A stretch of 64,000 nt of DNA from Picocystis sp. L7 (Eukaryota; Chlorophyta; Picocystophyceae; Picocystales; Picocystaceae), in the NCBI GenBank assembly GCA_020975725.1, contig QXJR01000005.1, positions 620,001-684,000 on the forward strand, read 5' to 3'. Both the position numbers and the translations under genes were made by a program. This document shows positions 1,771-46,006 of the stretch, piece by piece. The notes beneath the pieces were generated by a model that searched no databases, had not been told where the DNA came from, and worked only from the letters and a program-made list of their open reading frames with translations. Every line of letters starts with the position of its first letter. Positions within the stretch are counted from its first letter, which is position 1.

Positions 1771-2239
1771 GCGGTTGGCAATCGGAGCAAGCGGAGCGTT
1801 GTGGCAACCCACGTGCTCCCTAAGGTTACATCTGGCCGTCCGTCTTTGCTCGCCCCGAGGCGAACGTGAGCTTGCAATCGCATTGTCACCGTTCGTACCC
1901 CCAGCCCTACCATCTCGAAGGATGGATAGGGGTGGGGTCGGGCCATTCGGTCGGTCTGTCCCGGTCGAACTGCCCAGTATCCCTTTCAGGACCTCGTTCT
2001 GACTCGGGACGACCCTCCTTCAATACAATACCCATCGAGCCAGCCGTAGTGGGGTAATGGGGGACACAATTGTCTCTCATCCATCCAGGGTCTCCATCCT
2101 ATAGACCAGGGTCGCATAAGGCCCTCGGTGTTTAACCTGGAGGGCATGGCTTCACAAGAGGTCGAGGCCTCCCTCGCGCAACGCTCTCCCGGCTCCCGGC
2201 ATTTAGCCTTCATAGCTAAAAGTCGTAGACGTACCCCAC

Positions 2240-2462
2240 TGTTAGGAGCAAAGCTCCTTGCTCTTGAACTCCGCCGGTGCGGAGGAAGTTGCCTCGGAGG
2301 TTGAGGAGACGCTTGGGAGACGGCTCTACCTTCGAGGTCAAGATCAACTTGATTACAAGGTGTGTGGGGGGAGGAGTTAAGTACTCCTCCCCATCAAGGG
2401 ATAACCATCCATTGAAGGGGGTCAATGGGTGAGGAATGAAGGGGGAACCCTGATTCCTAACA
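2240..2462 (-). repeat. Element D 3' LTR
   Basis: The sequence is 223 bp, starts tgttagg and ends cctaaca, giving perfect TGTTAGG/CCTAACA inverted ends. It matches 8837-9059 at about 94%. Confidence 0.9.
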
Positions 2463-3974
2463 CTCCCCAGCCCCAACACCGGCGTCCTCGACGGTCCTTG
2501 TATACTGAACAAACAGGTGGTATTTTCTGACAGGATATTTCTGCGCTAGGTTGGTGGGTTGCTGTGGCCTCTGCGCCGGTAACACGGACGGTCCAAGTTG
2601 TTGAGCGAAAGGGAATTTCGTAGGATCTGCTGTCCAAAATTTTACCAGTTTCTCAGCATGCACGATTGGGTGAATGCTGCTGCCTTCCGGTAAGCGGATC
2701 TCATAATTGTCCTTTCCCAGGGAGCGGACAATTTCGGTAACCCGGAAGCGTGGCTGCAGTTTATGCTGATCACTGCGCGTCGCACGTCCTCCCTCCAGTT
2801 TGACGGTCTCTCCCTTTGCAAAGTTTTTGTTGACCCGCGTTCGGTTATTGAAAAATCGCATGCGTTCCTCAGACTTGGCGAGGTTGACTGCCATGAGACG
2901 ATATATCGTCCTCTGGTATTTGCACAATTCAGCAACCTGCTTATCGATTGTACGGTTGCTGGGTCCGGGCAGCAAATAGAAGGGCATGGTGGGATGGCGA
3001 CCCAACTCTGCCAGAAACGGAGTAACCCCTGTAGTGACCCGTACGGTGTTGTTGGTCGCGAATTCTGCAACGTGTAGGCATCTATACCAATCGTCATCTG
3101 CACCTAAAGTATCTATAAGCGCGACCCGCAGTTGGTCCGCTAGCGTCGCAATTTGACGTTCCGTTTGACCATCGGACTTCTGATGGTAAGAAGTTGTAAG
3201 CATGGCCGTGACACCCAAGGCCTCCATGAAATCGCGCCAGTATGCGCTGGTGAATTTCGTGTCTCGGTCCATGATCAAGTTGCTGGGGCATCCGCGTTTA
3301 GCGACCCAGTGACGCACAAACTGAAAGGCTAATTCGGACGCAGTGATGCTGGTGCTGATAGGAATGTAGACGGTGTATTTGGTAAACCGATCTACGACAA
3401 CCAGAACTGCATCGTAACTGCGACTGGGCGGCAATCCCATTGCTATGTCCAGTGTTACCCAGCGGTTTGGGTACGATCCATGGTCTGTAGGATGGAGAAT
3501 GGTCTTGCTGCACTGCCGGCTGATTTTGCCCAGTTGGCAAGCATAACATTGTTTGCAGTATGATTTGACGTCCTCGTGCATTCCAGGCCAGTAATATTGT
3601 CGCTTCAGCAGTTCGGTGGTTTTACGAACCCCCGGTTGACCTGCGTACGGCAAATCATGCGTGGTCATCAGGATGAGGTTCTTGACTACGCGGTCGTTAG
3701 GAACATACAACCGTTTCTGCCCCTGGGTGATCTTATACATCATTCCTTCCTGCTTCCGCAGGGTAGCTGTCTCCTAAAGTTTCTGATTGTCTACGTCCAT
3801 CGGTTCCCCTTTCGCAAGTAGCGTATCCAATCGGCTGATCTTACCAATGTCGACTACTATGAGTATTGATTGCAGGGGATGCAAAGTAGTATTCTCAGCT
3901 TCGTAAAAAGGACTATCCAACGCCCCGGGTGAGGGAAGTGAATAGCATGCCGTTGCTTGCTGAGCATCGTTATC
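2463..3974 (-). pseudogene. Element D integrase and C-terminal pol region
   Basis: The region encodes an integrase that would join the cDNA to host DNA. An HHCC zinc region is visible (TTHDLP, then CKQCYACQLGK). The DDE core has its first Asp in VTLDIAMGLPP, the second in IMDRDTKF and the Glu in KSDGQTERQ. A GPY/F-like region follows (HKLQPRFRVTEIV). The downstream tail is proline- and glutamine-rich and runs towards the LTR. The family assignment is certain. The element is a fossil, so no active product is claimed. Confidence 0.85.
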
Positions 3975-4817
3975 GATGGTATCGATCCAGATACGTATGA
4001 TGGAATTGATCCAGGAGACGGGGAACGCATTGCCAAGCATACGGTTCCTGGTGGATTTGTCCAGTCCCGGTGCTGCTGTGTCCCCCGGCTTCAGTCCAAC
4101 CAGCAATTCCCGCTCTTCAAGAGTCATTTGCCTGGTGGTAGTGCCACCTTCTTGCTGAACTAATGACTGGCCATTTCTGACATTATGTGTGTTGTCCCAG
4201 CTAGCCATCAGCGTGGGCGCTGTCCAACCTGATCGGAGACACGCCTGCCAAGTAAGCGGTTGGACAATTTCCTTTGAGCTGGGCTTCAAATTTTCAATGT
4301 CAAGATTACTCCAAAGCAGCCTCGTGCGCTGCTGTGCTGACCACTGACTCAAGTCATGCTGGGAAGCTTGCCCCAGCCACTGCTGCACTACATCCAGATC
4401 TTTCTGCAAGTGCTGGGCAAACGGCGTGCATTCAATTGCATAAAAGGTAGCTTGGCTGCGCAGAAGTAGTTTGTGCACCGTTTGAAACAACGAGCGGTCA
4501 TCCTATAAGCCTTTTCCAGCAGGATTTGCTCTACTGAAAGGTTGGCATGGTACCCCTGCGATGATGAGATCCAGGGTGGGTAGTTTTCTGTTCACCAGGT
4601 CTGTAACGTCATGACCCAAGCGGAATATGTCCTTGCGTAGGAATAGACCTAGACGGTCGCGCTGGACTAAATTGAAGACTCTCTGAATAACAGTGCGGCA
4701 ATCTGCATTGTTTTCAACTGCAATGTAATTGATGCGAACATGGTTTGGCACAGCATGGGCCAGGCTGCGGATTACGGTCCCTGTCCCTGCACACAAATCC
4801 AGCACTGTGAGGTGCAG
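3975..4817 (-). pseudogene. Element D C5 cytosine methyltransferase domain
   Basis: Directly after RNase H (DALSRRRS) the sequence turns into a C5 DNA methyltransferase. Visible motifs: I, LDLCAGTGTV (AdoMet binding); a following acidic strand, [20 protein letters not shown] with the Pro-Cys catalytic pair; VI, YAIECTPF; VIII-like, QQRTRLLW; IX-like, LEERELLVGL; and X, MLGNAFPVSWI. The order I-IV-VI-VIII-X and the spacing fit one complete catalytic domain of about 280 residues without an obvious target-recognition insert as large as in bacterial Dcm. The same domain is in elements A and B at the same place. The copy is part of a broken element. Confidence 0.88.
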
Positions 4818-7064
4818 CGCAGAACGTCTGCGACTCAGCGCGTCCCGCGGTAAATTGAACTTTCCAGGCTTGTACACTATGGTAAGCTGGAAGTCGGCAA
4901 GCCGGGGTAACCACGATAACTCGCGCTGCTGCAGTTTTGCTGGGTGCTTGTTCAGATAATGCACCAGTGCCTGATGGTCGGTGCGAACAACGATCGGGAT
5001 ACCCAACAAGGAATGTCGCCAAGTCTGCAATGCGAGGACAATGGCTAGCATTTCCAATTCAGTGGTGGTGTAGTTCTTCTGCGCACCCTGGAGAGATTTA
5101 CTCCAATAAGCCACTGGGTGCCAACCACTGCTGTGCTGCTGGAGCAACACAGCTCCAAGGCCAACATTTGATGCATCCGTGTGAAGTATTGTTGGGTACC
5201 CTGGAGTCCAGAGCTTGAGAACAAGCTCAGAAGTTAATGCCAGCTTCAACTCAACGAATGATGATTCTGCTCGCTCATCCCAACGAGCGGTCAAAGGTTC
5301 TGTCGTCCGAGTTAATTCGTAGAGCGGGGCTGCCTTTTCTTGGAACCGTGCTACGAACTTTCTGTAATACCCTGCGAGCCCCAAGAAAGATCGCAATTGC
5401 GTTGGCGTCCTGGGTTGTGGGAATTCCCTTACTGCCCCAATAAGTCGGGGATCAAGTCGTAACTGTCCCTCCCCAATTACATGTCCCAGGTATGTAAGGT
5501 GAGTCTGAAACCAGGTGCTTTTTTGCATATTGAGTCGGTACCGATACCGATCGCAAACCTGAAGCACCTCCTCAAGTGTGTCCAACATGACCTGGGAACT
5601 GTCCGCGTAGATCAGCAGGTCGTCGAGGTAGCAAGCGACTGTGCGCTTGTCATAGATGAGGTGATGAAACCTGGCATCCATCATGCGCTGGAAGGTAGCA
5701 ACTGCGTTGCACATGCCCATAACAAGTACCAACCACTCAAATAAGCCAAAGTGAGTGATGGTGCCAGTTTACCTCACACTGTCAGGATGCATGCGAATGT
5801 TGTAATAGGCTTCTTTTAGGTCCAGGCTTATGAAGAAGCGAGCCTGACTTAATCGATCCAGCAGTTCCTCGATGAGAGGTAGAGGGAAATGATCTTTGAC
5901 TGTGACGTCGTTTAATGCTCTGAAGTCCACGACGTCACGATCAGGCCCGTCCTTGCGCTTAACCATGAAAACTGCGAATTGGCAGGTTTCGCTGTCGCTG
6001 GCAGCCCGTTGCATAATCCCACGCTTGCATCGGTGCGCAAATCGCTTCTGTAACTCAATTGTTTGGTCAGCAGCCAATCGTATCGGTCGGGTTTGGACCC
6101 GCTGTGACCCCCCCTCGGTTAGGACGATACGATGATCAAATTCTGATGGCGGTGGCGGTGGTTCGTCGTCACCTAGTGGCTGCATGAGGTGCAGGTATTT
6201 CAGGAGCAGGTGTTTTAGTTGTTGCTGCTGTGCTGAATCCAGCGACTTGGGCAATTGTAATCCCTCGACTGCCTCCGGAGTGACCGTCGGAGGATTCTCC
6301 TGGATCGCTCCTAGCGTTGTTGTCTCGGCAGCGCTGTTGCGATTGATATGCAGAGCTACCATCTCACAGGCAGGGGCACTATGTCCAGGCGTTTCTGCTT
6401 GTTGCTTATAGGTCTTGTCTGCTGAAGGAATTACCCTACCCTTTTGCAAAAGGGGCTGTAATTCCCTGAACCATGGACTGCTGGGTAGATATGGGGTCAG
6501 GAGTACCAGGTCCACTGGTGCGGAGGCTCGTAACTTCTGCGTAACCTGGGGCAGTAGTCTCAAAGGCGGGGCGCAGAGTATAGGCCCTGGCAATTCTGTC
6601 CAGTCTTGTTTCATTGCCTCAACAGGATCCTCATAATTGAGTGATGCCAGCCCTGCCGTTGTCGAAACAAACAGGGTGGTACTGAATGGCCCAAACTCCT
6701 CTTCCAAAGTGCTGAAAGAAGTTGGGTGCTGAGCACTTAGCTCTGCAGTCGCCACGCTTACTGAAGCCAGGCCGTTGACGGAGGACGTCTCCCCTGTCTT
6801 GTTTTTGTCCATGGCCAGCGTTATTGTCTTTCCGCTATGTCTCAACTGAATTGTGTTGCGATTGACATCCAGCGAAGCCCGGAGTTGCTTCATAACATCA
6901 CAACCAAGGATCATGTCAAAGTTCTTTGGTAGATCCATAGGTATCACCTTAATCTTTACCTTGATGTGTTCTTCCAACGGCAGATCGAACGGACCAAGAG
7001 CAACCGAAATCTGCAAAAGTTCGCTGGACGTATGCGCCTGGCCATTGGCGAACACGCTTCGCAC
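4818..7064 (-). pseudogene. Element D protease, reverse transcriptase and RNase H
   Basis: The part nearest gag has a retropepsin-like region (FDMILGCDVMKQL). Next comes the Ty3/gypsy reverse transcriptase, with FISLDLKEAYYNIRM for the first catalytic Asp region, the YLDDLL box near 5615 and the SFLGLAGYYRKFV thumb. RNase H follows, with TILHTDASNVGLGAVL, TELEMLAIV and VRTDHQAL. These would make cDNA from the element RNA. The order is the standard one for Ty3/gypsy. The region is broken. Confidence 0.88.
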
Positions 7065-7498
7065 AAAGTGTGCCTTGCTGATAATGGTACCCAGAGTGCT
7101 GAATTCTCTGTGAATATAGGAACACCTTGCACCGGTGTCCTATAATCTTTTCAACTCTGTACCTCCAACGTAGGAAGGTCTGATAAAGGCCAACCCTCTA
7201 GACTACGCCAAATTCACAACGATCTAAGGACAAGAGGATGCTGGAGGGTTCTCCCCAGCCCCAATTGTCAAATCATTCAACTCAAATGTAGACAGCTCCC
7301 TGGCATAGTCCACATGGTAATAATCACCATCTGAAACTGTTTCATTGCAAGGTGAATCACACACCGTTGCCGCCACGGGCATATCTCCAGCCCAGTCTTC
7401 ACTTTCCTCGAGGAGGTGATGCCCTATGGGACTCACGTGGATGGTGGGAGCAGGAACAGGATCCCCACCCTCACGCTCGCTCAAAGGGGAATTTGTCT

Positions 7499-8575
7499 CT
7501 ACGCCCGCCGGGGTATCCCGTTGCTGGGCGCCTGGCCGTTTCCCGTTTCCAAACTCTTTACCTTGTTGGGGCAATCATTCGCCACATGATCAGGGCTCAA
7601 GCAACGGAAGATAAGGCATAGTCCCAACTGCTTACATTGCTCAATTGCTTTTGGCGTCGGTTTTTTTCCTTTCCACTCGGCACGGAACCTTTCTTGTTCG
7701 GGCGTAAGAGGGTGCGGCGATGCTAGCACAGCCGCCACTACTGACGGTTGCTCCATTTTCTGTGGAACTGCCTTCGCTTTGCGCCCGTGACGCTGATCAT
7801 CGCGTTCCCGCGCTTCTCTTTCGCGCGCGTGACCCTCCTCGCAATACTCCAAAAGCTCAAGCCAGTCCTCCATGGTCTCCAACGGTCGTTCGTTTCCGTC
7901 GAGTTTGTCTACCTCCAGTTTCGCACGCAGTTGATCACATATTCCAATCCACACGCTACTGCGTAGCTTCAATAGCACCATTTCATCACTCACATGGGGA
8001 ATCAACTTACCATCTCCCAAATTCACCTTCCTTTGCAACTCCTCGAGGTGTAATAGGTAATGGCGGACGGTCATGTCCCGCTTTTGGTACGCCCTCTCAA
8101 ATTCTTTGTATGCCGCCTCGGATGAAGGACGGATACGGTGAAGCTGAATAAGAAGTGCCTTGAATGCTCCCAAGTTTTGTGGGAGTGTCCCCTTCTCATA
8201 AAGAGAATTGAGGACGGCGCACTTGGGTCCTTGGATCATGTCAAGGAGATCCACTACGCTCTCCGATTCTTCCAAATCCGGTTGCCGGGCCTTGCGCCTT
8301 CCATACCATCTTGTTACACTACTCCACCAAGCTTCAAATGCTTCGGATAAAGTGTCATCTCCCACGTTATGAAAGGAAAAGGTCTTGGGTCTCGCAATCG
8401 TCTCCATAGGTCCACGAGAAACGGACGGGATCACAACGGACTGAGTGGATGTGCCATCTTGAACGGTGGAAGATGGGTGACTCCTCAACTTTTCCAACTC
8501 CTCACCTTGTTGGAGAAGTTGAATCTTTAGTGCCTCCAACTCTTCTTTTAATTCCTCCATCCTTGTCATTCTCAA
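7499..8575 (-). CDS. Element D Gag-like protein
   Basis: The 358-residue ORF lies just inside the 5' LTR. It starts with a coiled-coil-like stretch (LKEELEALKIQLLQQGEELEKLR), continues with a retrotransposon gag region (AFEAWWSSVTRWYGRRKA, then AAYKEFERAYQKRDMTVRHYLLHLEELQRKV) and ends with a Cys/His cluster of zinc-knuckle type (CLIFRCLSPDHVANDC). Gag would package element RNA in a cytoplasmic particle. Protease and reverse transcriptase follow on the same strand, which supports the call. It belongs to an inactive element. Confidence 0.8.
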   Translation of the reverse strand: MRMTRMEELKEELEALKIQLLQQGEELEKLRSHPSSTVQDGTSTQSVVIPSVSRGPMETIARPKTFSFHNVGDDTLSEAFEAWWSSVTRWYGRRKARQPDLEESESVVDLLDMIQGPKCAVLNSLYEKGTLPQNLGAFKALLIQLHRIRPSSEAAYKEFERAYQKRDMTVRHYLLHLEELQRKVNLGDGKLIPHVSDEMVLLKLRSSVWIGICDQLRAKLEVDKLDGNERPLETMEDWLELLEYCEEGHAREREARERDDQRHGRKAKAVPQKMEQPSVVAAVLASPHPLTPEQERFRAEWKGKKPTPKAIEQCKQLGLCLIFRCLSPDHVANDCPNKVKSLETGNGQAPSNGIPRRA

Positions 8576-8836
8576 TCGTTTTCCACCACTCGAACTCTAA
8601 CTTTCGATGTAGAGCTCCGCAGCACACGTTTTGTACACCGTTCGATGCGTCTTGTTGTGCTCGTTCAAACGACACGTAGAACGTTTAATTTGAGCCAGTA
8701 ACGGCAAAGTTATGCCCAAACGAAAATTCCACGAAAACCTAGGTGGCCGGACGTGACGCACAATAACCACGGGCGCGTCCACAAAGCTTAATGCGCACGA
8801 GTGGGTTCTCTCACCGTGCGTAGAAGTCCTTTTTAC

Positions 8837-9059
8837 TGTTAGGAGCGAAGGTCCTTGCTCTTGAACACCGTGGGTACGGAGGAAGTTGCCTCGGAGGTTG
8901 AGGAGGCGCTTGGTAGGCGGCTCTACCTTCAAGGTCAAGATCAACTTGATTACAAGGTGTGTGGGGGGAGGAGTTAAGTACTCCTCCCCATCGAGGGATA
9001 ACCATCCATTGAAGGGGTTCAATGGGTGAGGAATGAAGGGGGAACCCTGGTTCCTAACA
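8837..9059 (-). repeat. Element D 5' LTR
   Basis: The sequence is 223 bp with TGTTAGG/CCTAACA ends and pairs with 2240-2462. Transcription of element D on the minus strand would start here. Confidence 0.9.
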
Positions 9060-11036: not shown

Positions 11037-11040
11037 ATCA

Positions 11041-11562
11041 TGTAGCGTCCGACTGATGTGGCACGTGCTCAGGGTCTCACCAGCACCGAAAAGAGCGTCG
11101 TTTGAAGGTGGCGAAGTGGAGGAGGCGTTGGGAAGGCGGTAGCTCTTCCGAAAGAAAGCAAGTGAACTAAAAAGACAAGGGGAGGGACCTAGGGGTCTAC
11201 CTCTCTCTCAACCGCCCTTGAGCGGTTGAAGACAGCCTGGCGGGGCTCCCCAACTGCCCACGTGGGGGGCGGGCGATGCATTGGATGGTCCCGAAGGGTC
11301 GTTTCCAAGCGACCCTGGCCTGTCCGTCGCATCGCCACCGTTGAGTTGCCCCAGCCCTACCTTCTAGAAGGGATTGAGGGAAGGGATTCCAAACACCACA
11401 ACCCTTCAATCCCGGTCTGTTCCGTTCGAGTCCTCGATAGGGAGGTCCCTTAGTAAGGGGCGAGTCCCCTTACTACAAGGGTTCTGACCGGACCAGGTCT
11501 CGACCCAACTTGGAGAGGGGTTCGAAGGGGCCCTCTCATGGATAGGGCCTCTAGGGCCTACA
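11041..11562 (-). repeat. Element A 3' LTR
   Basis: The 522-bp sequence pairs with 17902-18423, from which I find one difference. It has TG...CA ends. Confidence 0.95.
11362..11369 (-). promoter_or_regulatory. Heat-shock-element-like TTCTAGAA in element A 3' LTR
   Basis: The TTCnnGAA palindrome sits directly beside a CCAGCCCTACC box. The pair recurs at 18223-18230 and, diverged, in the LTRs of elements B and G. Regulation by heat-shock factor is inference. Confidence 0.35.
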
Positions 11563-11593: not shown

Positions 11594-14500
11594 CTAAGCA
11601 TGATTGAAATCATAAATGTAACTGATGGGGTCATAGAGCATAGTCTGAATTTCTGCCACGGTATGTGTTGATTCATATCCATCTGTCCATTGCACACGGC
11701 ATCTATTGTCATGCTTCTGGATCACTGTCCCCTGGTAGAATTCTGATTTGTCATCGGTGACATGGAAGAGGTCTTGTACCACGGCATGCAGCAGGTCAGC
11801 AGGTGGTTTGAACCGCGGTCGTTTACGGACTTGCATGGGCAGGTGGCTTGAGGTCCAGGTGTTGACCATGATGGGTGCAGGACTCTGCAAATATACCTGT
11901 TGTTTGTGCTGCTTAACATGCTGAAAGTTGTTCTGTGTTATATCTGTTTCTGGTATGCAGCCATTTGTTTCTTCCAATGAGAGGAATTCTTCCAAAAGAT
12001 AGCTTGTTTCATCGATCCACATGAACGGGGTCGAGACGGAGTCCGTTTGGACCCAATATCGAACGCTGGCTGCTGGGAACAACGAATAATCTCGCAACAA
12101 GTAACGGATGGTGTGATGAACTGGCTCCACTTGAGTGTCTGGAGGCAGTAATGCATGCTGCGGATGTCCTGAATGTGCAGGAAATACTGTGAGGTCCGAA
12201 TCCACCCATTTTTCCAAGCGGTCTGCATTAATACGATCAGAATATGGGGAGTTGTTGGGTAGCTCCAGGCGATACGCTCCTTTCCCCAACTCCTCTGCAA
12301 TGGTGAATGGACCTACATAGTAGGGATCGAGTTTGTGTTTGTCAGTAGGACTTTTGAGTCCATACTGAACCTTGACCAAATCTCCTGGCTTGAAGCTACG
12401 TGGCGTACGATTGTTTCGCAGTTCACGGAATGAATCTGCCTGTTTCTGCAACTTCTGCAGAATAGCTTTGTATACCTGTTGCTGTTGTTTCAGAAAGGTT
12501 TCAATACGATGATCGGTTGAACAAACAGATGTGTTTGCATAAGCATCCTGCATAGTGGGTAATTGCAGGTGCCAGGGTAATCTAGAGGGGCACCCATAAA
12601 CTGCAACAAACGGCGAAACCTTGGTGACAGCGTGCTCGCTGTCATTATATGCATGGGCAGCAGCCTGCAAGTAGTTGTCCCAGTTGCGGCGATCGTCGCA
12701 AGTTAGTCTCAAGGTCTGTAGCAAGGTTCGGTGTTGTCGTTCGGCTCCGCCCTGTGACTGTGAATGATATGGGCTACCTGTGGTATGTTGAACCCCGAGC
12801 GCAGAACAAAAGGCCCTAAATAATGAGCGGTAAGCTGGTCCATTATCTGTGTGGATCCTCTGTGGGGTGTGAAATTGATATATCAAACTGTCCATGATAC
12901 ACTGTGCTTGGCGGAATGCGCTCCAGGTGGTATGGATAGGAATATAGATCGCAAATTTGGTGAAACGATCAACGATTGTTAGTACTCCATTGTGGCCTTT
13001 GCTGGTAAGCGGGAGGCCTTCCACGACATCTAAGACCACAGTATGAAATGGATATGGGTAGAATGCTGTCTCTGGAAAGTATGGCTGGTGACGCGAGGCT
13101 GTACCTGGCTTTTGTAATTGACAGGTAGGACACCGCGCCACAAAATGCTGAATCTGGTTGTGCATATTCTTCCATCGGAAGTGCCGTTTCGCTGCTGCGT
13201 AAGTGCGAGCGGTTCCAAAGTGGGCGTGGTCATGCACCAGGTGCAAAAGGTCCTGACGGAGAGCGTCATCGGCTGGGACCCATACCACTGCTGGACCATC
13301 ATAGGAAGTAAAGCTATTAGCTGTTGGCTTGTCAAACAGCAGCCCATCTCTAACCTGCAGGTGATGGGGAGGACTGTTTACCATGGCCTTGTATTGAGAA
13401 TCTGATATTGCCGCTCTCTGCAATCTTTGGATGATAGGTGTGGCCTGTGAATCTGTGAGCATGGCTGCAACTTTGGAGGGGCTGCGAAGAACGCACACAG
13501 TCGGTGTATGACTGCGGCTAGCTAGCGGTCGAAGCGTCCCTGTGTGGTTCTGTAAAAAGGCAGTCAGCAAATTTGCAATCCACGCTACAGGAAAGGCATT
13601 GCCGCACATTCGATGGCGAGAGGCCTCTGAAACTTGGGCAGCAGCGGTGTCATTGGCCTCCATTCCAACTAAGCGCTCTTTTTCCTGAATCTGTAGTGGC
13701 CTCAATGTTCCATCAGAGTTTTGGACCCAGGTAGACCGACTTCGGTCGCTGTGCGATTTGTGGGAGGCCATCAAGGTGGGGCACTTTGTAATAGGTTGCC
13801 CCAGTTCGTCGGTAGGCACAGTAGATCCGGGTGTTAAGCAGTCTTGCCATAGAACGGGGAGGTCCTGCAGGGGTAACAATTCTGAAGGGTTAGGCAGGGA
13901 GGTCCAGCAGTAACGGACGCGTCTCTGCGGGCAGCATTGTGCCAAATCATGTAAAAGTGGCTCTCCTAACATGTCACTAATCTGCTTGAAATCAGCCCCC
14001 AAATGCCCCGCAAAGGGGGTACATTCAATGATGTAGCTTGGGTGGCCCAGTCGCTCCAGCAAGCGATGAGCGGAGGTAAACAGTTCTCGATGGTCGCGTA
14101 AGCCATAGCTCGGATGATCCTTTGAATTATTGGCCTTGGAAAAGGGCTGGCATGGAACGCCAGCGATGACCAAGTCTACTGGAGGCAGTTTGCGGCGGTC
14201 CGTTAGTAGGCGGACATCGTTACCATAACGAAAAATGTCGGTCCGCGAGAAAAGGCCAGGTCGGTCAAGACTGACATCTGCAAAGACGCGTTGAATGACT
14301 TGGCGTGCGTCGTGATCGAGTTCTACTGCGATGTAATCAATCTGTAATGTAGCACCAGGGGGAACTAGATGCCACAGGGCCCGTAACACGGTACCCATTC
14401 CTGCACACACATCCAGGATTTTGACAATGGGCTGTTTGTCTTGACTGCTGTGCCTAGAAAGGTAGTCTGCAGTAATGTTTTCGGGACCCGGGCGATAGTG

Positions 14501-16620
14501 AACTTCGAACGGTGCGAAGTACGATAATTTAGCTATCCAGCGCTGATCGCGTGGACTTAATTGTTCTGATGACTTGCTCTGAAGATACATGCTGGCCCGG
14601 TTATCGGTGATAACTGAAAACTGTTGTCCAAATAGTAGGTGACGCCAATGCTGGAGCGCATAAACGATAGCGCAGGTCTCTTTCTCTGCTGGATGATAGT
14701 TTTTCTGGGCAGAATTGAATTTTTGGACCAAAACTCCACAGGTTTCCATTGATTTGTGGAAACATCTTGTAACAGGACGGCCCCCATACCGTGATCTGAT
14801 ACATCTGTCTCGATGCGGATGGGGCGGTCCGCGTGGAAAAGCTGTAGCACTGGCCTGGAAGTGAGTAACTGTACCAGTTGAGTGAAGGCAGCATCATGCT
14901 GTGGTTTCCAGTAATGCTGAAAGTCGTGTTTATACTGTTTACGACTGAGCTCTGTGAGTGGGGCTGCAATGTCTGAATAATTCTGCACGAAGCGCATGTA
15001 AAACTGGCAGAGGCCTAGGAAGGCCAAATTCTGCTTGTGGGTTGTTGGTTTGGGGAATTTCTCGATCCGCGAAACCAAGTGGTCAGCACATGTTAGTTGT
15101 CCTTCGCGAATGCGGAAGCCAACCCACTCCAGGGTGCGATGAAAGAAGAAGCATTTCGATCGCTTAAGTCGGATGTCACTTTGCTGGCAGGTGTCCAAGA
15201 ATTGCTCAAGGTGTGCAAAATGTTCTGGGATGTTGGCAGAATGGACCAAGATGTCATCCATGTATACCTTCAGAAAAGGTAAGGTACCGAAGATTCGGTT
15301 CATCATGCGTTGAAACATGGCTGGAGCATTAGCGAGCCCCATCGGCATAACCCGCCATACGTAACTCCCGAACGGGGTCACAACAGCAGTCTTCTCCACG
15401 TCGGCCGGGTTCATCGGCACCTGGTGGAAACCATCCAGGGCATCCACTGACGAAAAGACATGGGACCCTTGTAAATTCTGCAGGTGGTCATCAATGCGGG
15501 GTAACGGGTAGCGGTCCTTGATTGTTGCCGCGTTAAGCAGCCTATAATCAAAGACAACTCTCCAGCCCCCATCCTTCTTTGGTATAAGCAGCACAGGTGC
15601 CCCCCAACTGGATCCAGCGCAGATGTCCATCTTCCCCGCGTCAACGTACTCCGTAAGCAGTTCACGTAGAGCTTCTTGCTGTTGCGGTGACAAGCGGTAG
15701 TAGTTGCGGTGTACAGGTTGTGTGCCTGGTTCCACATTAATATTGAAAGACTCCCCAGGTGTCCGTTGAGGGGGAATCGAGGTTCGTTTCTCGAAGCAAG
15801 ACTTGTATTGTAATAGAAGTCTGTCCAAGTGCTCCTGATCATCAGGGCTTAGCTTGTAAGCTTCGCTGAGCTGGCTGCGGAAACTGGCCAGATCCTGTTC
15901 CTCGCTCGTCAACTCAAATGTTGAGTCCAGGGGCTGTACCATTAAAAAGAGACACTCAGTTGACTGTAGAGCTTCCTTCACCTCTGATGGGGGTACAATC
16001 AGGTCCAGTTTACGGGCTTTGATGAATGACTCATCGCCCTGGACTCGATGAACAGAACCCGCTGGATCGCGGAGTTCCATATACTGCTGCTGCCAGTTGA
16101 GCTGCAGCAGATACTTATGACAGAAATCGACGCCGAGTACGCAACTGAAGGTTTCGATTGGCGCAACTCCAAAAGTGTGGGTTGCCTGAAAAGTATCGAT
16201 GGTCAGCAGGACTTCGATTACTGGCGCTTGGTATGTCTCTGTTCCTACAGCCAGGCTGAAATTGAAGAAGTGTCCAGTAGGCTTCCAATTCTGCAGGGCA
16301 GGATCTTGATGTTTGAGTTGTTGAAAGGCTTGGGTACTCAAGAAGGAGTTGCTCGCAAGCGTGTCCACATAAGCTTGAGTCTGCAATGTGGGAACCTCGG
16401 TGTTTCCCAGGTAGCATCTCGCCGTGAGAAATTCACAGCGAGGACGGGGATTGGGTGATGCTCTGAGGGATACCACTTGGCCTGGATATAAATTTGTATG
16501 GCTTGCTGTCTCCATGCATGCACCAGGTGGTGGTTCTTCTCCCGGCTCCATCCTGACAGCCCCAACTGTCAGGTGGAGCCCCTTTAGTTTTTTGGAGACA
16601 TGGGGGACGAATGACGGCAT
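11594..16620 (-). CDS. Element A Pol polyprotein region
   Basis: Domains in order on the minus strand: a retropepsin-like protease ([12 protein letters not shown], then [17 protein letters not shown]); reverse transcriptase ([39 protein letters not shown]); RNase H ([34 protein letters not shown]); C5 methyltransferase (separate entry); integrase with HDHAHFG and CPTCQLQ zinc ligands and a DDE core ([29 protein letters not shown]); a GPY/F module ([25 protein letters not shown]); and a C-terminal WTDG-containing module at about 11597-11782. The region looks nearly whole, with at most about one break. Pol would be made by shifting out of the gag frame in a short overlap. Confidence 0.92.
11597..11782 (-). 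other. C-terminal Tudor/SH3-like module of element A Pol
   Basis: The last 62 residues contain QGTVIQK, then CRVQWTDG, then a short helix ending in MLYDP. This is the strand pattern of a Tudor, Agenet or chromo-barrel type reader. Elements B and E have the same module. Many Ty3/gypsy integrases end in a chromodomain that guides insertion, and this module sits in that position. The fold is inferred from pattern only. Confidence 0.45.
13535..14428 (-). CDS. Element A C5 cytosine DNA methyltransferase domain
   Basis: The domain is about 300 residues and would transfer a methyl group from AdoMet to C5 of cytosine in DNA. Motifs seen in order: [63 protein letters not shown] with the catalytic Cys; [60 protein letters not shown]. 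The motif VIII form ([11 protein letters not shown]) and the compact size recall DNMT3-type enzymes more than bacterial Dcm, but only a tree can settle that. It sits between RNase H (DYLSRHSSQ) and the integrase. All catalytic motifs are present and uninterrupted. Methyltransferase-bearing retroelements are known in dinoflagellates and Klebsormidium. Confidence 0.92.
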
Positions 16621-17879
16621 TGTTTTGCATCATGTCCATAACGGCGGCATCGCAAACATAGGGAATTGGCAGTACACTGTTTTTGCTGATCTGGAGAGAG
16701 AGTGGCTCCCAAAGGGAGGTCCTTCAAGTCTGTTTGGACCCTGACGATGCGTTCTTGAAGTTCCTTGGAGAGGTCAGCAAACCTTTTGGCGATGCGGCCA
16801 GCAGGGGTAGTTGCTGCCCTCTTTGATGTAGGATCAGAATGGGGCATCGCACGGATGGTGGCGGTCGATGTTGTGCGGACCGTATTGGCTCCTGTAAGCT
16901 TGTTGCTGCGGGCTGCAGCTTTGGCCCGTTCTCGTTCTTCAGCCTCTACCTTCAAGGCGGCGGCACAGACCCCCCAGGGGGACATGTCCGGAGCGCGTCC
17001 AAGTTCCACTAGCAACTGAAAGTGTTGTTCTATTTTGTTGCTCATCGAGTAAGGTAGGCCGACACGCAGTTTCGTGGCGATGTCGCATTCGCTGATTTTC
17101 ATGCACGTAGGGTCTGTGCTCATGTTTACCACAAAACTCAGCAAGAGTAGCCGATTCAAGAATTTCACCACGTCTTCCTTGATCGGGTGCATGCGGGCGC
17201 GCTGAAATTCCTTCCACGCATCCGGCCCAGGATCGCGTCGCTGAAATGTTTCTTTCAACAAATCATAGAGAGCCGGAAGATGCGATACGCGATTCTTGTC
17301 ACCCATTATGATGTTGTCCATCATGATTCTTGCGGTTCCGCTCAATGTTTGGAGGGCAAGCACAACTTGTTGGGTATCGTTCAAGGCGTAACCTTGTACC
17401 CAGCAGGACACTTCACGATACCAATGAGTAAGTGAATATGGGTCATGGGTGAGTTCGGCACCTGAGAATGACTTGGGCTTCGTGAGCGTCACACCTTGCA
17501 AGCGTTGCGAGGCTCCCATGGCTTGGTACATATTAGTGAGGGAATGCAACCCTTTCTCGGAGAGGGGATGCACCGCAAGAGGAACGTGCTCTGCTGGTTT
17601 TAAGTCTTGGTCTGATGGTTCTTGCGGAGGAGCCTCATGTGGAAGCTCCTCTTCTTCCTCTTGCGCTTCATTTTCCACGGGGTCTCCGCCAACGGGCGGT
17701 GCATCAACAACTCCATGTCCGGTAAGGGAAAGCGTACGAAGTTGTTCGAGCTCACTTTCTAGCAACGAATTCCTCGCTTCGAGGTCTTTCCGACCTTCTT
17801 TCTCTCTTTCGAGCTCCTCTCTCATTCGTTGAAAACGGGTGAGGGTCCCCAAAGGGACATCTTCTTCAACATCACTCAT
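16584..17879 (-). CDS. Element A Gag protein with zinc knuckle
   Basis: The intact 431-residue ORF starts just inside the 5' LTR. It opens with a coiled coil (FQRMREELEREKEGRKDLEARN), continues through an acidic linker and a gag capsid-like core (DPYSLTHWYREVSCWVQGYA, then WKEFQRARMHPIKEDVVKFLNRLLLL), and ends with a CCHC zinc knuckle ([16 protein letters not shown]). It would assemble particles around the element RNA. It overlaps the start of pol by 37 bases (16584-16620), pol being in the -1 frame, which suggests the usual gag-pol frameshift. Elements B and G have clearly related Gags. Confidence 0.9.
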   Translation of the reverse strand: MSDVEEDVPLGTLTRFQRMREELEREKEGRKDLEARNSLLESELEQLRTLSLTGHGVVDAPPVGGDPVENEAQEEEEELPHEAPPQEPSDQDLKPAEHVPLAVHPLSEKGLHSLTNMYQAMGASQRLQGVTLTKPKSFSGAELTHDPYSLTHWYREVSCWVQGYALNDTQQVVLALQTLSGTARIMMDNIIMGDKNRVSHLPALYDLLKETFQRRDPGPDAWKEFQRARMHPIKEDVVKFLNRLLLLSFVVNMSTDPTCMKISECDIATKLRVGLPYSMSNKIEQHFQLLVELGRAPDMSPWGVCAAALKVEAEERERAKAAARSNKLTGANTVRTTSTATIRAMPHSDPTSKRAATTPAGRIAKRFADLSKELQERIVRVQTDLKDLPLGATLSPDQQKQCTANSLCLRCRRYGHDAKQCRHSSPMSPKN

Positions 17880-17901: not shown

Positions 17902-18423
17902 TGTAGCGTCCGACTGATGTGGCACGTGCTCAGGGTCTCACCAGCACCGAAAAGAGCGTCGTTTGAAGGTGGCGAAGTGGAGGAGGCGTTGGGAAGGCGG
18001 TAGCTCTTCCGAAAGAAAGCAAGTGAACTAAAGAGACAAGGGGAGGGACCTAGGGGTCTACCTCTCTCTCAACCGCCCTTGAGCGGTTGAAGACAGCCTG
18101 GCGGGGCTCCCCAACTGCCCACGTGGGGGGCGGGCGATGCATTGGATGGTCCCGAAGGGTCGTTTCCAAGCGACCCTGGCCTGTCCGTCGCATCGCCACC
18201 GTTGAGTTGCCCCAGCCCTACCTTCTAGAAGGGATTGAGGGAAGGGATTCCAAACACCACAACCCTTCAATCCCGGTCTGTTCCGTTCGAGTCCTCGATA
18301 GGGAGGTCCCTTAGTAAGGGGCGAGTCCCCTTACTACAAGGGTTCTGACCGGACCAGGTCTCGACCCAACTTGGAGAGGGGTTCGAAGGGGCCCTCTCAT
18401 GGATAGGGCCTCTAGGGCCTACA
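17902..18423 (-). repeat. Element A 5' LTR
   Basis: The 522-bp sequence pairs with 11041-11562 and is followed by the atca target duplication. The TTCTAGAA palindrome is at 18223-18230. The internal region starts with TTGTCGAAGCC; a closely similar TGTCGAAGCC follows the element B 5' LTR and may be the tRNA primer site. Confidence 0.95.
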
Positions 18424-18427
18424 ATCA

Positions 18428-26273: not shown

Positions 26274-26984
26274 TGTAACGGCTAGCGAGGCCTCCGAGGG
26301 TCCCTACGAGACCCTGGCCTACGGGACCAGACCCCCGGGACCCCATATGGATGAGGGGCAATGGTGTCCCCTCTCAAACAACGGCTGTACCGTTCCGGAA
26401 CTGGATTCAGTCCCCTTGGGGGTTCGTATTGAAGGAAGGTCGCCCCCGTTCAGAACGGGTTTCCTGTAAGGGACATCGGGGATTTAGACCGAAACCGACC
26501 GATTGAAGGGGTCCGACCCCATCTCTACCTTTGCTTCTGGAAGGTAGGGCTGGCGTGCTGGACGGTGTCGATGCGAACGCCTGCTCACGTTCGCCCTGGG
26601 GCGGACGCAACGGACGGTCACATGTGACTCTAGGGAGCACGTGGGCTGCCATGACGCCCCACTTGCCCCAATTCCAACCGCCAATGAGAGACGGTGAGAG
26701 AGGTAGACCCTTGGTCCCTCTTTGCTTTGTGATACACTTCTTCTACTTGCCAAGCAAAGTGCGCAACACGCCACCTCCTCCGACGCTCACCAACGCGACA
26801 GGAGACACCACCTGGACGCTCCACCACCTCCGTTCTAGCCTACCACGCCGGCCGAGGCTCCTTCAACGCAAGGGAGAAGAGAGAGAGAAGAAGACCCCGG
26901 GACGAGGGGTGCGAATCCCGTCCTCCACGAGACCCTCATCACCAAGAGTACGTGTGTTGGGTCATTCAACCACGGACGCACGTC
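26274..26984 (+). repeat. Element B 5' LTR
   Basis: The 711-bp sequence starts tgtaacgg and pairs with 33305-34015. An HSE-like TTCTGGAA lies at 26535-26542 beside GGTAGGGCTGG. Open frames inside the LTR have no recognisable domain. Confidence 0.92.
26535..26542 (+). promoter_or_regulatory. Heat-shock-element-like TTCTGGAA in element B LTR
   Basis: A TTCnnGAA motif followed by GGTAGGGCTGG. The same arrangement is at 33566-33573 in the 3' LTR and at 59838-59845 in the element G LTR. Function is inferred. Confidence 0.35.
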
Positions 26985-27035
26985 AAATACTGTCGAAGCC
27001 TACTCTTGGGAGAAGACGGCGTTTCGTTTGCAAGA

Positions 27036-28292
27036 ATGGACGCTACGGACCACGCCACAAGAATGAGTACTCTCCGAAGAGAGCTTGAACAAGAACGAAG
27101 CGAAGGGCACACCCTTCGTGGAAGAGTTGCTGATCTCGAAGCCCAAGTCAAGGCTCTTCAAGCGATACCACTTGATGATCATCAATTGGAAGCCATGAAA
27201 GACCTCCTCGAAGGAGATGAGTCTCCAAGTACCGATCAAGGCGCTCCCGCCGAACCCATCAGTTTGTCCGAAGAAAAGGGGCTCCCACGCCTCACAAGTT
27301 TGTATGGGACAGCATTGCAAGACTCCAAGAACATACAAAAGGTCTCCCTTGAAAAACCTACCAAGTTCAATGGGGTGGAGCTTGAGGAAGACCCCTGCAC
27401 CCTCAACTATTGGTATAGGGATATGTTGTGTTGGTACCAAGCCTACGCCTTCGATCGACCGAAGGAACAATTGGTCCTAGCCATCAGTCAAGCACTTGGT
27501 GGAACAGCCAAGTCCATGGTCCAAAACCTCATCATGAAAGACCCTGATGCTTTGCAATCGGTGGAAGACCTACACTCATATTTGAAAAAGACATTTCAAA
27601 ACCAAGACCCAGGCCCCGAAGCGTGGCGCGAGTTCCACACCACCAGAATGAGAAGGTCAGAAAATGTTTTGCACTTTTTGAACAGGTTGGTGCAGCTCAG
27701 CTTTGTGGTGAATGCCAGCAGCTCTCCTGTTTGCCGTACTCTGTCCGAGCATGACATATCAGCCAGGCTACGACATGGTCTGTCAACATACCTCCAAAAG
27801 GCTTTGTATAAACACCTCGAGCATCCAATTGATGTTGATAAGGTTCCAGACATGAAACTAGGCAACCTGGCAGTCACCACATTCAAACTTGAACGCGAGG
27901 CGGCTGAACCAACAAGGAAGGATATCAAGCAGCATGATGACAAGTAGAGAGGACGATCGCCCGCGAATCGCGAGTATCGACCGACACCGCAACGAGCGGT
28001 GTACCGCTCTGCAGCTTTAGCAGCTGCCATGCCAACTCAGCAGCAGCAAACAGCAAGAAGCGATGGATACCGCAAGCGTCAGCACAAGCGGTTCGATGAT
28101 TTGGAAGAGGAACCGAAAAATGCGATCATCAAAGTCCAAACACAGCTGGCCAGCAAGCCACTTGGGGGTAAGCTTACCCCAGAAGAAAAGAAACTTTGCC
28201 TTGCACATGCTCTGTGCCAGCGATGCCGTCGATATGGTCATGATCAATCAGTCTGCAAGATGGCATCAGTGATGGGCGCGCCAAAAAACTGA
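27036..28292 (+). pseudogene. Element B Gag region
   Basis: It starts at MDATDHATRMSTLRRELEQ with a coiled coil (RGRVADLEAQVKALQ). A capsid-like core related to element A Gag follows (DPCTLNYWYRDMLCWYQAYA, then AWREFHTTRMRRSENVLHFLNRLVQLSFVV). The region ends with a CCHC knuckle (CQRCRRYGHDQSVCKM). The order and wording match A Gag closely enough to show common descent. The region is broken. Confidence 0.85.
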
Positions 28293-30427
28293 TGGCTCTC
28301 CGTCCGGTAACGCAGGTTACCGCGACGGAGCCGGGAGCGAAAGCTGCAGCAGCCCCAATGATCAACAGTAGCGATCCAGTCTGCTTACACTCATTGACTA
28401 ATGTAAAACCAAAACAGGAATTTCTTGCTGCAGAAACATTTTTTGGAAACAGGAAACAGAGAATTAGAACCCAGGCCTACCTGGATACTTTATCAAGTCA
28501 CTGCTTTATCAGTGAAAAGCTTTTCAAGAAACTGCAGGATGCTGACCCGTGCCGTTCATCTTGGCAGTATACGACAGACAGCGTCGATTTCACAGTGGCT
28601 GTGGGCCAAGATGTTCACACTGCACCTGTGATTGAAGCTACGTTTACGATCGATGGATTCCGCACTCGCATGAGCTTTGGAATAGCACCTTTGGAAACGT
28701 TCGACTGTATCCTGGGAGCCACCTTCTGCCATCAACATTTGGAAGTACTGGACTGGCAGCAACACAGAATGATCCTGCGCGGACGCAATGGAACCAAGTT
28801 TACAGTGTATGGGGATCATCGGTTCCTGCCTTCAAGGAAACTGGACCTCATCGTGCCCGGGAGCGAAGCTCGCGCAGCAGTCAAGGACCCAGGTTGCCTG
28901 TTACTCGTGATACAGCCTATGGACCCCACTCCAGAAATGATAAGTGAGGAAGAAGACTTCAGGAGAGTGCGCAGCCAACTCAGCAATGCATGGGACCTGG
29001 ATGACCAAGACCAGGCCCGGCTAGATGACCTGATAGAAAAGAAATATAAGCACCTGCTTTAGCCTCGTACCGAGTTACCGCCCGAAGGAGTACCGGGAGA
29101 GATGTTCAAGGTTCAATTGATGGAGGGCGCTACGCCCCAATATCGTAATTACTACCGGCTGTCCCCGCAGCAGCAGACTGCACTGAAGGAACTGATCGCC
29201 AAGTATGTAAACGCAGGTAAGATGGACCTGTTTGCTGGATCCAGCTGGGGAGCCCCAGTCATACTGGTTCCCAAGAAGGACGGCGGATGGCGAGTCGTTT
29301 TTGACTACCGCCTTCTCAACAACGTTACGGTCAAGGATCGCTATCCTCTGCCGAGGATCGATGATTCTCTGCAGAACTTGAGGGGAGCCAAGTACTTTTC
29401 ATCGCTTGATGCGATGGATGGCTTCCATTAGATCAGAATGGACCCAGATGATGTGGACAAGACTGCTGTGGTGACCCCCTTTGGGTCATTTGTATGGAAG
29501 GTCATGCCGATGGGGTCTGCGAACGCGCCATCGATGTTCCAGCGCATGATGAATAGAGTGTTTGGGCACCTGCTGTATTTAAAAGTGTACATGGATGACA
29601 TCTTATTACACTTAGAGACAAAACTCCAGCATTTTCAGCATCTGGAGGAGTTCTTCCCCGTGTGCGAACAAGCCGATATTCGGCTCAAGCGATCAAAGTG
29701 TCACTTTTTCATGAGCACCCTGGAATGGGTAGGCTTTGGCATTCGAGACGCGCAGTTGGCCGGCACAGGCCGTCTCCTCGAAAAGATCCAGTGGTTCCCG
29801 CGCCCTACATCGCAGCGCGAAAATAAGGCTTTTCTGGGGTTATGTCCGTTCTACATGTGGTTTGTTCCTCACTTTGCGGAATTGGCTTCCCCACTTACAG
29901 AGTTGAACCAAGCATCAGAGAAATACAGCTTTGCTGCATACTGGAAAGAGCTAGAGGAGAGAGCCTTCCAAAAACTGGTGACAGTTTTAAATAGCCCACC
30001 CGTACTGGCTCTCTTTGATGAGGACAAACCCATCAGGGTGGAGACAGATGCCTCAGAAATCGGTATGGGTGCGTCGCTTATGCAACAGGATGAGCAAGGC
30101 ACATGGCGTCCCGTCGAGTACTGGTCGAAGAAGTTCAACAGTGCGCAACAGAACTACCGCCCTGCAGAAAAGGAAACCTGCGCGATACTTTATGCATTGC
30201 AACACTGGAGACATCTTTTATTTGGGCAGAACTTTACGGTCATCACCGATAACAAGGCCAGTCATTTTCTCAATACCAAGGCCACTGAACAACTGTCCCC
30301 CAAACAAATGAGATGGGTGGAGAAGCTGGCTTACTTTGCTCCATTCACGGTGGAGTACAGACCTGGCTTCGAAAATATTGAACCGGACTATCTCTCTCGC
30401 CATTCAGTCCAGGTTAGGAAAGGAACA
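28292..30427 (+). pseudogene. Element B protease, reverse transcriptase and RNase H
   Basis: The protease region carries AYLDTLSSHCFIS and CILGATFCHQHLEVLDW, matching element A in form. Reverse transcriptase shows [36 protein letters not shown] and FLGLCPFYMWFV. RNase H shows RVETDASEIGMGASL, EKETCAILYALQHW and ITDNKAS, ending with DYLSRHSVQ just before the methyltransferase. The region is broken. Confidence 0.88.
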
Positions 30428-31315
30428 GTATATTGCATACTTGAGTTGTGTGCTGGGATGGGCACTACGCTCCGTGCACTGGAGATGGTCTTACCAGAAA
30501 CTGCAGAATTCACCTTGGACTACATTGTAGTTGAGAAAGACGCGGACTGCAGAAGCGTCATCCAGCGCGTGTTCAATCAAGTGCGCCTGGCTCGGCCTGG
30601 CTTGTTCTCTCGCAAGGACATCTTCCGATATGGCGACGATGTTGCTGCTCTGGCGCATCGTCGAAAGCTTTCCCCCGTTCACCTCCTCATCGCAGGTGTG
30701 CCTTGCGAGCCGTTCTCACGCGCAAACACAGATGCAAGTAAACCTCCGTTGGGCCTTTACGATGATCGAGAACTCTTTACAGCTGTGGGAAAACTTCACA
30801 GACGAGTACGATCGCCAAACTATGCGATAGAGTGTACCCCGCTCGCACCCCACATGGATTCTCACCTAGACACGATCTCCCAATGGTTTTGGGGAACCCA
30901 ATATTGAAGACCTTTCTCAGTATGGAGCGCAAGCACGGACCAGGCTCTGTTGGACCTCGCTGCCACCAGCCCCGGTATCAATGGGCACCACGAAACATAC
31001 TTCCCTCACATGGCAGGAATGTTTGGATCCAGGGGCACACGCCCCAAAAGACGCTTTCGACAGGCCTTGTCTTAAATGCCCCACCCTCATGGCCAGCGCA
31101 CGGTCCCATAGTGACAGCTCGTGATCCACCTGGGTACACGACACTGACGGGGAGCTCTGTCCGCTGACCACCAGCGAGCGTGAGCGACTGGTAAGAGTAC
31201 AAGTAGGTGACAATGCTGCAGTTGATGTCAGTGAAGCCGGTCGACATCGCATGTGCGGCAACGCCTTTCCAGTAGGATGGATGGCCCACATGTTACTTCG
31301 CTGGATATACCACAC
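30428..31315 (+). pseudogene. Element B C5 cytosine methyltransferase domain
   Basis: After RNase H the sequence gives motif I LELCAGMGTTLRALE, motif II YIVVEKDADCRSVI, motif III SRKDIFRYGDDV, the motif IV region LIAGVPCEPFSRAN with the Pro-Cys pair, motif VI YAIECTPLAPH and, further on, motif [15 protein letters not shown]. It is plainly homologous to the domains in A and D and lies at the same point of pol. The domain is part of a broken element. Confidence 0.85.
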
Positions 31316-33275: not shown

Positions 33276-33304
33276 ATTCAGATCGTCGCAGTGAGCCGGG
33301 AGAG

Positions 33305-34015
33305 TGTAACGGCCAGCGAGGCCTCCCAGGGTCCCTACGAGACCCTGGCCTACGGGACCAGACCCCCGGGACCCCATATGGATGAGGGGCAATGGTGTCC
33401 CCTCTCAAACAACGGCTGTACCGTTCCGGAACTGGATTCAGTCCCCTTGGGGGTTCGTATTGAAGGAAGGTCGCCCCCGTTCAGAACGGGTTTCCTGTAA
33501 GGGACATCGGGGATTTAGACCGAAACCGACCGATTGAAGGGGTCCGACCCCATCTCTACCTTTGCTTCTGGAAGGTAGGGCTGGCGTGCTGGACGGTGTC
33601 GATGCGAACGCCTGCTCACGTTCGCCCTGGGGCGGACGCAACGGACGGTCACATGTGACTCTAGGGAGCACGTGGGCTGCCATGACGCCCCACTTGCCCC
33701 AATTCCAACCGCCAATGAGAGACGGTGAGAGAGGTAGACCCTTGGTCCCTCTTTGCTTTGTGATACACTTCTTCTACTTGCCAAGCAAAGTGCGCAACAC
33801 GCCACCTCCTCCGACGCTCACCAACGCGACAGGAGACACCACCTTGACGCTCCACCACCTCCGTTCTAGCCTACCACGCCGGCCGAGGCTCCTTCAACGC
33901 AAGGGAGAAGAGAGAGAGAAGAAGACCCTGGGACGAGGGGTGCGAATCCCGTCCTCCACGAGACCCTCATCACCAAGAGTACGTGTGTTGGGTCATTCAA
34001 CCACGGACGCACGTC
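33305..34015 (+). repeat. Element B 3' LTR
   Basis: The 711-bp sequence pairs with 26274-26984 with about four differences by eye. Confidence 0.92.
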
Positions 34016-34744
34016 TGATAATGGGTGCCCCGAGGTAGTACAGGTATGCAACATTGCTCCATAAGCGTTCACAAAACATCCCCCATGTTGTTTCTCACTA
34101 TTACCTTGTTTCTCGAGGAAGCAGCATTCTTTGGCCGGGACGATTGTTAGGAAGGCCTTGTCATGAGCCATCGTTCGAGATCCTCCTTTGCTAAGCATGG
34201 ACCAATTTTGCTAACCTCGCCTCCATGAATGGTCTAAGCCTTGTTGACTCGTTGCTGCCTCCACAATAAAATTTCACGAGCATAAGTTCGCTAGCCGGTG
34301 TAGCACTACCGTGCCATTGACGGAGGTCCCTACGAGCCCTTGCCCCCCTAGCTATTGCCTTGAATGTGAGAAGACGCCTCGACAGCGAATCTCGTTAGGT
34401 TCCACACCGGTTTGACTAAAGCTCCCCGGTTTAGCCTCGATCCTCTATTAGAGATCCATAGACCGATAACCGGGATATTATCGCCCGGTACCTACTACTT
34501 AAGTTATTTTGGGGGGGTTTTATTCTTTCGGAACCCCTTTGCAAGTGGTTGAGGGGCTTGGGAGCATCCGACAGCCTTTGGGTACGCATGTGGGTCCACG
34601 GGCGTTCCCTAAGACATCCTTACTAGATGCTAGAAGCCTTGGCGACCGTTGTTACGTTCTGTTGTGTGACTCCCGATTCACGAAGAGGAGCCGGTCTTCG
34701 AAATGAGGGTTGATGACGTCAAGAAGAGAGACGTCCTCGTGGAA
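34016..34744. other. No recognisable feature
   Basis: No convincing ORF or repeat is seen. A poly-G run lies near 34510. Confidence 0.4.
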
Positions 34745-43433: not shown

Positions 43434-43459
43434 GCGACTCTTGTTGCGTGCGGTGATGA

Positions 43460-45763: not shown

Positions 45764-46006
45764 AATAGCAAGAGTCTCTTGCTCAGCTGTGGAGTAGTTG
45801 CGTTGGGCATCATTGAATTTTCGCCCATAGTAAGCAACCGGATGCCACTTGCCATCCTCATGTAGTTGAGAAAGGATTGCGCCGGTAGCGATCTTACTAG
45901 CATCCGTCTCTACGCGCGTCTCTCTGTTCGGATCGTATTGGACGAGGACGGGCTCTTGAACTAGAGCAGCCTTGAGGCGCTGGAACGCGTCCTCTTAAAG
46001 CTCAGT

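Follow-up and report, generated by a model that had tools for sequence, protein, structure and literature searches.

Why should a transposon encode the very kind of enzyme by which transposons are normally silenced? The question becomes testable in the green alga Picocystis sp. L7, from whose genome we analysed a stretch of 64,000 nucleotides (contig QXJR01000005.1, positions 620,001 to 684,000; hereafter the window). A Ty3/gypsy retrotransposon in this window, element A, encodes a cytosine-5 DNA methyltransferase (DNMT) within its Pol polyprotein, and the same compact genome holds young DNMT-bearing families together with a DNMT-less sister family (G) with long open frames. As read from the nucleotides, the insertion is complete, an intact DNMT sits at a matching position in seven groups of diverged elements, and a predicted -1 frameshift signal is found in five groups. 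We consider it about an even call that these elements form an abundant Ty3/gypsy lineage whose Pol-borne DNMT3-type enzyme is packaged and methylates the element's own new cDNA, the copies being born quiet.

Element A and its methyltransferase domain

The sequence shows element A to be a complete insertion of the Ty3/gypsy type. This copy is defective but very young and occupies 11041-18423 on the minus strand, or 11037-18427 including its target-site duplications. It is flanked by long terminal repeats (LTRs) and is organised as follows.

18424..18427: right copy of the target-site duplication ATCA (sequence comparison)
17902..18423, minus strand: 5' LTR, 522 bp, one mismatch against the 3' LTR
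16584..17879, minus strand: gag open reading frame (ORF), from an ATG 22 nt past the 5' LTR through the stop, with a C-terminal CX2CX4HX4C knuckle
14557..16629, minus strand: Pol part 1 (protease, reverse transcriptase, start of RNase H), in the -1 frame relative to gag
11594..14893, minus strand: Pol part 2 (end of RNase H, DNMT, integrase, tail)
13535..14428, minus strand: cytosine-5 DNA methyltransferase domain, DNMT3-type fold (Pfam, motif alignment, tree, predicted structure)
13106..13270, minus strand: integrase H2C2 zinc-binding domain (Pfam PF17921)
12761..13051, minus strand: integrase catalytic core, rve (Pfam PF00665)
12245..12379, minus strand: integrase C-terminal SH3 domain, Tf2-1-like (Pfam PF24626; also in eight of eight relatives)
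11597..12244, minus strand: conserved Pol tail (comparison with relatives)
11041..11562, minus strand: 3' LTR, 522 bp
11037..11040: left copy of the target-site duplication ATCA (sequence comparison)

Membership in Ty3/gypsy is indicated by the order protease, reverse transcriptase (RT; 15109-15585, within Pol part 1), RNase H and integrase, with an rve integrase in Pol, and by direct LTRs that start with TG, end with CA and are bordered on both sides by the 4-bp duplication; such LTRs with a target duplication also occur in copies L033, L034, L035 and L038. The protease of family A was recognised by eye, having no Pfam match, and its active site in families A and B reads DTL, not DTG or DSG. 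The CCHC knuckle is visible in the gag C-termini of families A, B, C, C2 and D; none was seen in the last 50 gag residues of the one E copy. A sequence-only reading of the window had described the element as nearly whole and very young. The single LTR difference in 522 bp and the ATCA duplication agree with this description, but a frameshift within RNase H interrupts Pol, dividing the Pfam match to RNase H between ORFs 14557-16629 and 11594-14893, and this copy is not competent. The frameshift amounts to one gap column relative to two sister copies.

The methyltransferase comprises 298 codons without a stop, placed between RNase H and integrase in ORF 11594-14893, and matches the Pfam DNA_methylase family with an E-value of 6.7e-10. 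Its conserved motifs follow in the order I (D/E-x-CAG-x-GT), IV (GVPCQPFS, with the catalytic Cys), VI (ECTPF), VIII (QxRxR), an R/E/L/G block and X (GNAxPV), and the core motif residues are invariant across nine aligned copies from seven groups, chosen mostly for open frames. The sequence-only reading was thus right to report a complete-looking cytosine methyltransferase with ordered motifs. The misreading of motif order or catalytic Cys that it had named as a possible error can be rejected, as 115 of the 132 matches scored in a domain search of the 20.5-Mb assembly (30 contigs), a lower bound on the total, lack an internal stop; the 17 rows with stops were counted by hand.

An AlphaFold model of the domain (predicted local distance difference test score 86) retrieved DNMT3A/B/C as all of its 39 best PDB entries, at 19-27% identity in the structural alignments, and a PDB sequence search was likewise led by DNMT3A/B, with 44 bits vs 31 bits for HhaI. 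The catalytic fold as modelled is therefore of the DNMT3 type, with unrearranged motif order, and the block spanning motifs VIII to X can be aligned with that of the DNMT3 family (DNMT3A/B; plant DRM). The elements differ from this family in motif IV, PCQPFS instead of PCNDLS, and in motif VI, ECT (ECVPF in family E) instead of ENV. Pfam found no ADD or PWWP domain in Pol. Bacteria and viruses were also considered as a source. Outside retroelements, the highest-scoring sequence matches are bacterial-type enzymes (41-47 bits and lower), few of them named, and 19 loci on viral contigs match parts of the domain at 25-45%; these raw scores are as near as that of DNMT3A (44 bits), but the PDB sequence and fold comparisons favour DNMT3A/B, and models of the viral proteins reach a template modelling (TM) score of 0.65 at most. 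DNMT3 ancestry seems likely, if weakly supported.

Abundance, age and origin of the DNMT-bearing elements

Merging the domain searches yields at least 160 distinct DNMT loci in the genome, a count that leaves out host genes, includes one locus from the window, and was made without checking the surrounding element at each locus. A survey of Gypsy RNase H sequences (201 candidates, 150 sites scored) places a DNMT within 900 nt downstream of RNase H at 118 of the 150 sites, and 57 of those 118 lie in open frames of at least 1600 aa. The 32 sites without a nearby DNMT include 26 that adjoin a segment characteristic of family G (matched by hand) and six that are unassigned. Seven groups, A, B, C, C2, D, E and F, carry the domain at the same position in Pol, with Pol identity between groups falling to about 31%. 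Seventy of the 160 loci lie on contigs C3 and C4, which account for 2.39 of the 20.5 Mb, a pattern suggestive of retrotransposons gathering on one or two chromosomes. EukProt entries labelled Pavlova lutheri, a haptophyte, also stand near the elements (P0001 at 88%, P0013, P0057 and others), and contamination or mislabelling is possible. The host itself looks like a green alga: for one ORF, the 60 PDB rows listed are light-harvesting proteins, the majority with chlorophyll a-b binding in their names.

Several families appear to be young. Three sister copies of element A have an open Pol (1678, 1678 and 1710 aa); in two of them the LTR pairs differ at 1 and 0 of 522 bp, as compared with 1 of 522 in the window copy, and in the third, L032, the Pol end diverges and no LTR pair was found in the fetched stretch. 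Among 14 stretches, chosen mostly for open frames and not a random sample, a distant LTR pair was found in seven and none in the other seven. The seven with a pair comprise three A copies, the one in the window included, and stretches of B, C2, D and E, whose LTRs differ at 0/582 (B), 1/457 (C2), 0/356 (D) and 1/482 (E).

Three further elements lie in the window. The sequence-only reading had missed the two that bear a DNMT and the adjoining DNMT-less offshoot, as well as the number of loci in the genome.

26274..34023, plus strand: second DNMT element, decayed; 719-bp LTRs with 7 mismatches; DNMT remnant at 30437-31322
2238..9059, minus strand: third DNMT element, older, inferred from a 225-bp direct repeat (94%); DNMT at 3984-4811 with a stop, F-like sequence
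42260..51142, minus strand: G-family element without recognisable DNMT; 765-bp LTRs with 14 mismatches and one gap

The sequence-only reading had left the placing of the enzyme to a phylogeny, and the tree obtained answers in part. It unites the 11 retroelement domains in a single clade (100/99) that excludes ten bacterial-type enzymes as well as the host's PWWP-DNMT, DNMT2-like, CMT and DNMT1 proteins. The neighbour of this clade is a DNMT3A fragment with a long-branched DRM-like host protein, a weak placing (78/75) in a tree whose DNMT3/DRM side consists of these two sequences. In the RT phylogeny, 13 DNMT-bearing rows and the G row group together (96/99), apart from eight DNMT-less database elements. 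The phylogeny of RNase H and integrase recovers a group of A-D, G and P0023 (100/99) and leaves E and F in an unresolved fork with four DNMT-less elements. Judged from these sequences, a single capture of the DNMT by this Gypsy clade is likely. Family G is nested among DNMT-bearing elements (95/95 in RT; 97/97 with A-D in RNase H and integrase), and because of this nesting, loss of the DNMT in G would be the simplest reading.

At the DNMT site of its relatives, between RNase H and integrase, the G element of the window has about 200 aa of other sequence (44945-45547), and about 30 G loci (33 match rows) retain this segment. Descent of the segment from a DNMT drew only weak support: the hhalign probability is 5.8%, shuffled sequences scored as well in 4 of 1000 trials with the near-family profile and in 17 of 1000 with all sequences, z reaches 4.0 and 3.2 in two of six comparisons and lies between -0.2 and 1.7 in the other four, and the segment has no sequence match in PDB.

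As to the source of the captured gene, the host genome encodes DNMT1 (with RFD and BAH), chromodomain CMT-like, PWWP-DNMT and DNMT2-like proteins, as identified from Pfam domains with class names that are partly our reading. In a further host protein (L026:1937-3142, minus strand) motifs IX-X precede I-IV, which we read as a DRM-like arrangement; DRM has been found restricted to streptophytes, according to one study (PMC12344493). Capture from a host DNMT3 gene was not favoured, since a search with the DNMT3A fragment, which a DRM would escape, gave 73 rows that all lie outside the five host genes and so revealed no unrearranged host DNMT3.

Retroelement-borne DNMTs are already known as a kind, namely KnitGypsy-Dnmt3 and SymbioDIRS (de Mendoza et al. 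2018, PMC5890265), and the statement of the sequence-only reading that such elements occur in Klebsormidium and dinoflagellates is borne out by that paper. It describes KnitGypsy-Dnmt3 of the charophyte Klebsormidium nitens as an intronless, multicopy Ty3/gypsy element with a DNMT3-type domain in Pol under purifying selection (Ka/Ks <0.2), and the ratio also lies below 0.2 in four diverged DNMT pairs here. These likenesses raise the serious possibility, somewhat short of even, that our elements are the same lineage in another alga, through the same capture, descent or horizontal spread, which concerns origin and is compatible with any of the mechanisms discussed below. Compared by description, however, the two differ in host (a charophyte there, a green alga here) and in repeat structure, DIRS-like there and ordinary direct LTRs here (PMC5890265). 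No match bearing the name Klebsormidium appeared among 33, 51 and 99 protein matches, most of which are nameless and come from a search that needs shared words. The dinoflagellate elements SymbioDIRS-Dnmt3 and SymbioLINE-Dnmt (Symbiodinium) share a cytosine DNMT, of DNMT3 type in SymbioDIRS, but are respectively a DIRS element with a tyrosine recombinase and a LINE (PMC5890265), whereas an rve integrase and LTRs are present here. DNMTs of Ty3 and DIRS elements have also been listed for green algae among others under DAM/DCM, a category that lumps adenine and cytosine enzymes; the available text describes no green-algal family (Morozov et al. 2019, PMC6338049). We found no description of the present family in the literature searched, mostly open-access and without preprints. 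What is new here is the host, the abundance, the diversity, the frameshift control, the Tudor-like tails in some elements and the loss of the DNMT.

Expression and site of action of the enzyme

The anatomy of Gag-Pol predicts where the DNMT acts. Pol lies in the -1 frame and shares 28-46 nt with gag in the copies examined of A, B, C, C2, D and E. In all of these but E, the shared stretch has A AAA AAC at its end, right before the gag stop. In element A the relevant features are:

16587..16593, minus strand: slippery heptamer A AAA AAC, followed at once by the gag stop
16544..16580, minus strand: RNA stem-loop, following the heptamer after 6 nt; its pairs covary across five groups

Over five distinct sequences the stem pairs in 85% of 80 cells, a value reached by none of 500 shuffles, as compared with 26-41% in slid controls; the structure was derived from one of the five sequences, a bias in its favour. 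Both sides change in 7 of 16 pairs, as high a covariation being reached by 11 of 500 shuffles, and single-sequence folds give z from -1.5 (family C) to -4.1. Heptamer, stop and stem together constitute what we take to be a textbook -1 frameshift signal. Because this signal precedes the gag stop, Gag-Pol would be a minority product and probably the only form in which the DNMT is made, packaged beside RT and integrase. The packaged enzyme would then methylate cytosines, probably in CpG, of newly made double-stranded element cDNA before or at integration, and host DNMT1 and CMT could maintain the mark on inserted copies. New copies born quiet would impose a lower cost on the host, and many could persist in a small genome.

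An enzyme acting in trans, on host chromatin or on rival elements and to the detriment of silencing or of competitors, we consider unlikely. Such action would suit elements that are numerous and clustered, and fusion of SymbioDIRS-Dnmt3 domains to a nuclear signal led to de novo methylation of CG sites in yeast (PMC5890265). A putative chromatin reader is moreover present in some Pol tails: Pfam detects a Tudor domain in three of eight relatives, though not in the element-A family copy scanned. Fusion of the DNMT into Gag-Pol past a frameshift signal, on the other hand, points to low amounts and packaging, and it is mainly because the DNMT is expected as a packaged product that we prefer methylation of cDNA or of the integration site to a free nuclear enzyme.

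The tails were also examined for a chromodomain, and Pfam found no PF00385 match in eight tails at E 0.1. A low-confidence model of the tail (predicted TM score 0.29) has a strand-strand-strand-helix arrangement at 162-211; all Foldseek matches to this model lie above E 0.001, and Z is 6.7 or less. A Tudor-type Pol end is shared with the brown-algal Gypsy-10_Ec32 (Ectocarpus), to its authors' knowledge the first reported transposable element with one; the available part of that account mentions no DNMT (PMC12477816), whereas family E combines a Tudor-like end and a DNMT in one Pol. A fuller reading, which we offer tentatively, is that of an ancient single capture of a DNMT3-type enzyme, rationed by frameshifting as a virion enzyme and paired in some elements with Tudor as writer and reader, in a clade that came to dominate a 20-Mb genome and of which G discarded the catalytic part. 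If so, the module would mark its own cDNA and aim it at chromatin, and G would be a natural loss-of-function control within the same nucleus.

Selection on the domain bears on whether the enzyme is used. The ratio of nonsynonymous to synonymous divergence (dN/dS) of the DNMT is 0.055 (A vs L008), 0.070 (the E pair), 0.120 (L024/L028) and 0.133 (L025/L027) in diverged pairs, dS being saturated in all pairs other than these and the near-identical ones given below; RT gives 0.057, saturation, 0.133 and 0.040 in the same four pairs. Yet DNMT dN is 1.6-3.2 times RT dN in six comparisons (A-L008, A-B, A-C, C-C2, C-D and L024-L023; ratios worked out by hand). Low dN/dS combined with higher dN than in RT indicates that the domain is under purifying selection, but looser than that on RT.

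This looser constraint is one of several observations that weigh against self-methylation by a packaged enzyme. Five near-identical pairs give DNMT dN/dS of 0.32-0.63, from 3 to 22 changes. Motif VI has Cys in place of Asn in nine of nine aligned copies. In E, the single copy examined has no heptamer. When the domain of KnitGypsy was tried in yeast, the result was negative but inconclusive (PMC5890265). The DNMT is also not essential: family G has spread without it, in elements that have long open frames. Nor did we recover a trace of self-methylation: over seven stretches of DNMT elements, two from family A, the CpG observed/expected ratio is 0.68-0.78, inside the host range of 0.61-0.98 (seven stretches), and it is higher, 1.03, in the one G element measured. 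CpG decay is absent from three young A copies, in which 59 columns are polymorphic, 40 of them C/T or A/G, with 10 of these 40 transitions at CpG vs about 7.5 expected. Neither the CpG ratio nor the polymorphic columns show self-methylation, and CpG decay was discarded as proof of it.

The altered motif VI, the faster evolution relative to RT and the segment kept by G at the same site would also suit a domain retained not for catalysis but because it binds DNA or serves the integrase precursor as chaperone or spacer. We regard this as improbable, since Pro-Cys-Gln, the motif I core, QxRxR and GN remain invariant at a Pol identity of about 31%, which a spacer would not need. With packaged self-methylation as the preferred reading, family G can serve as an internal control.

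Minor features

The leader past the 5' LTR of element A is short (22 nt, 17880-17901) and starts with TTGTCGAAGCC, not with TGG. A match to the LTR of at least 7 nt, as for self-priming, was not found. Tandem repeats lie beside elements at 18778-19291 and 39829-40178, with periods of 66 bp and about 62 bp, respectively.
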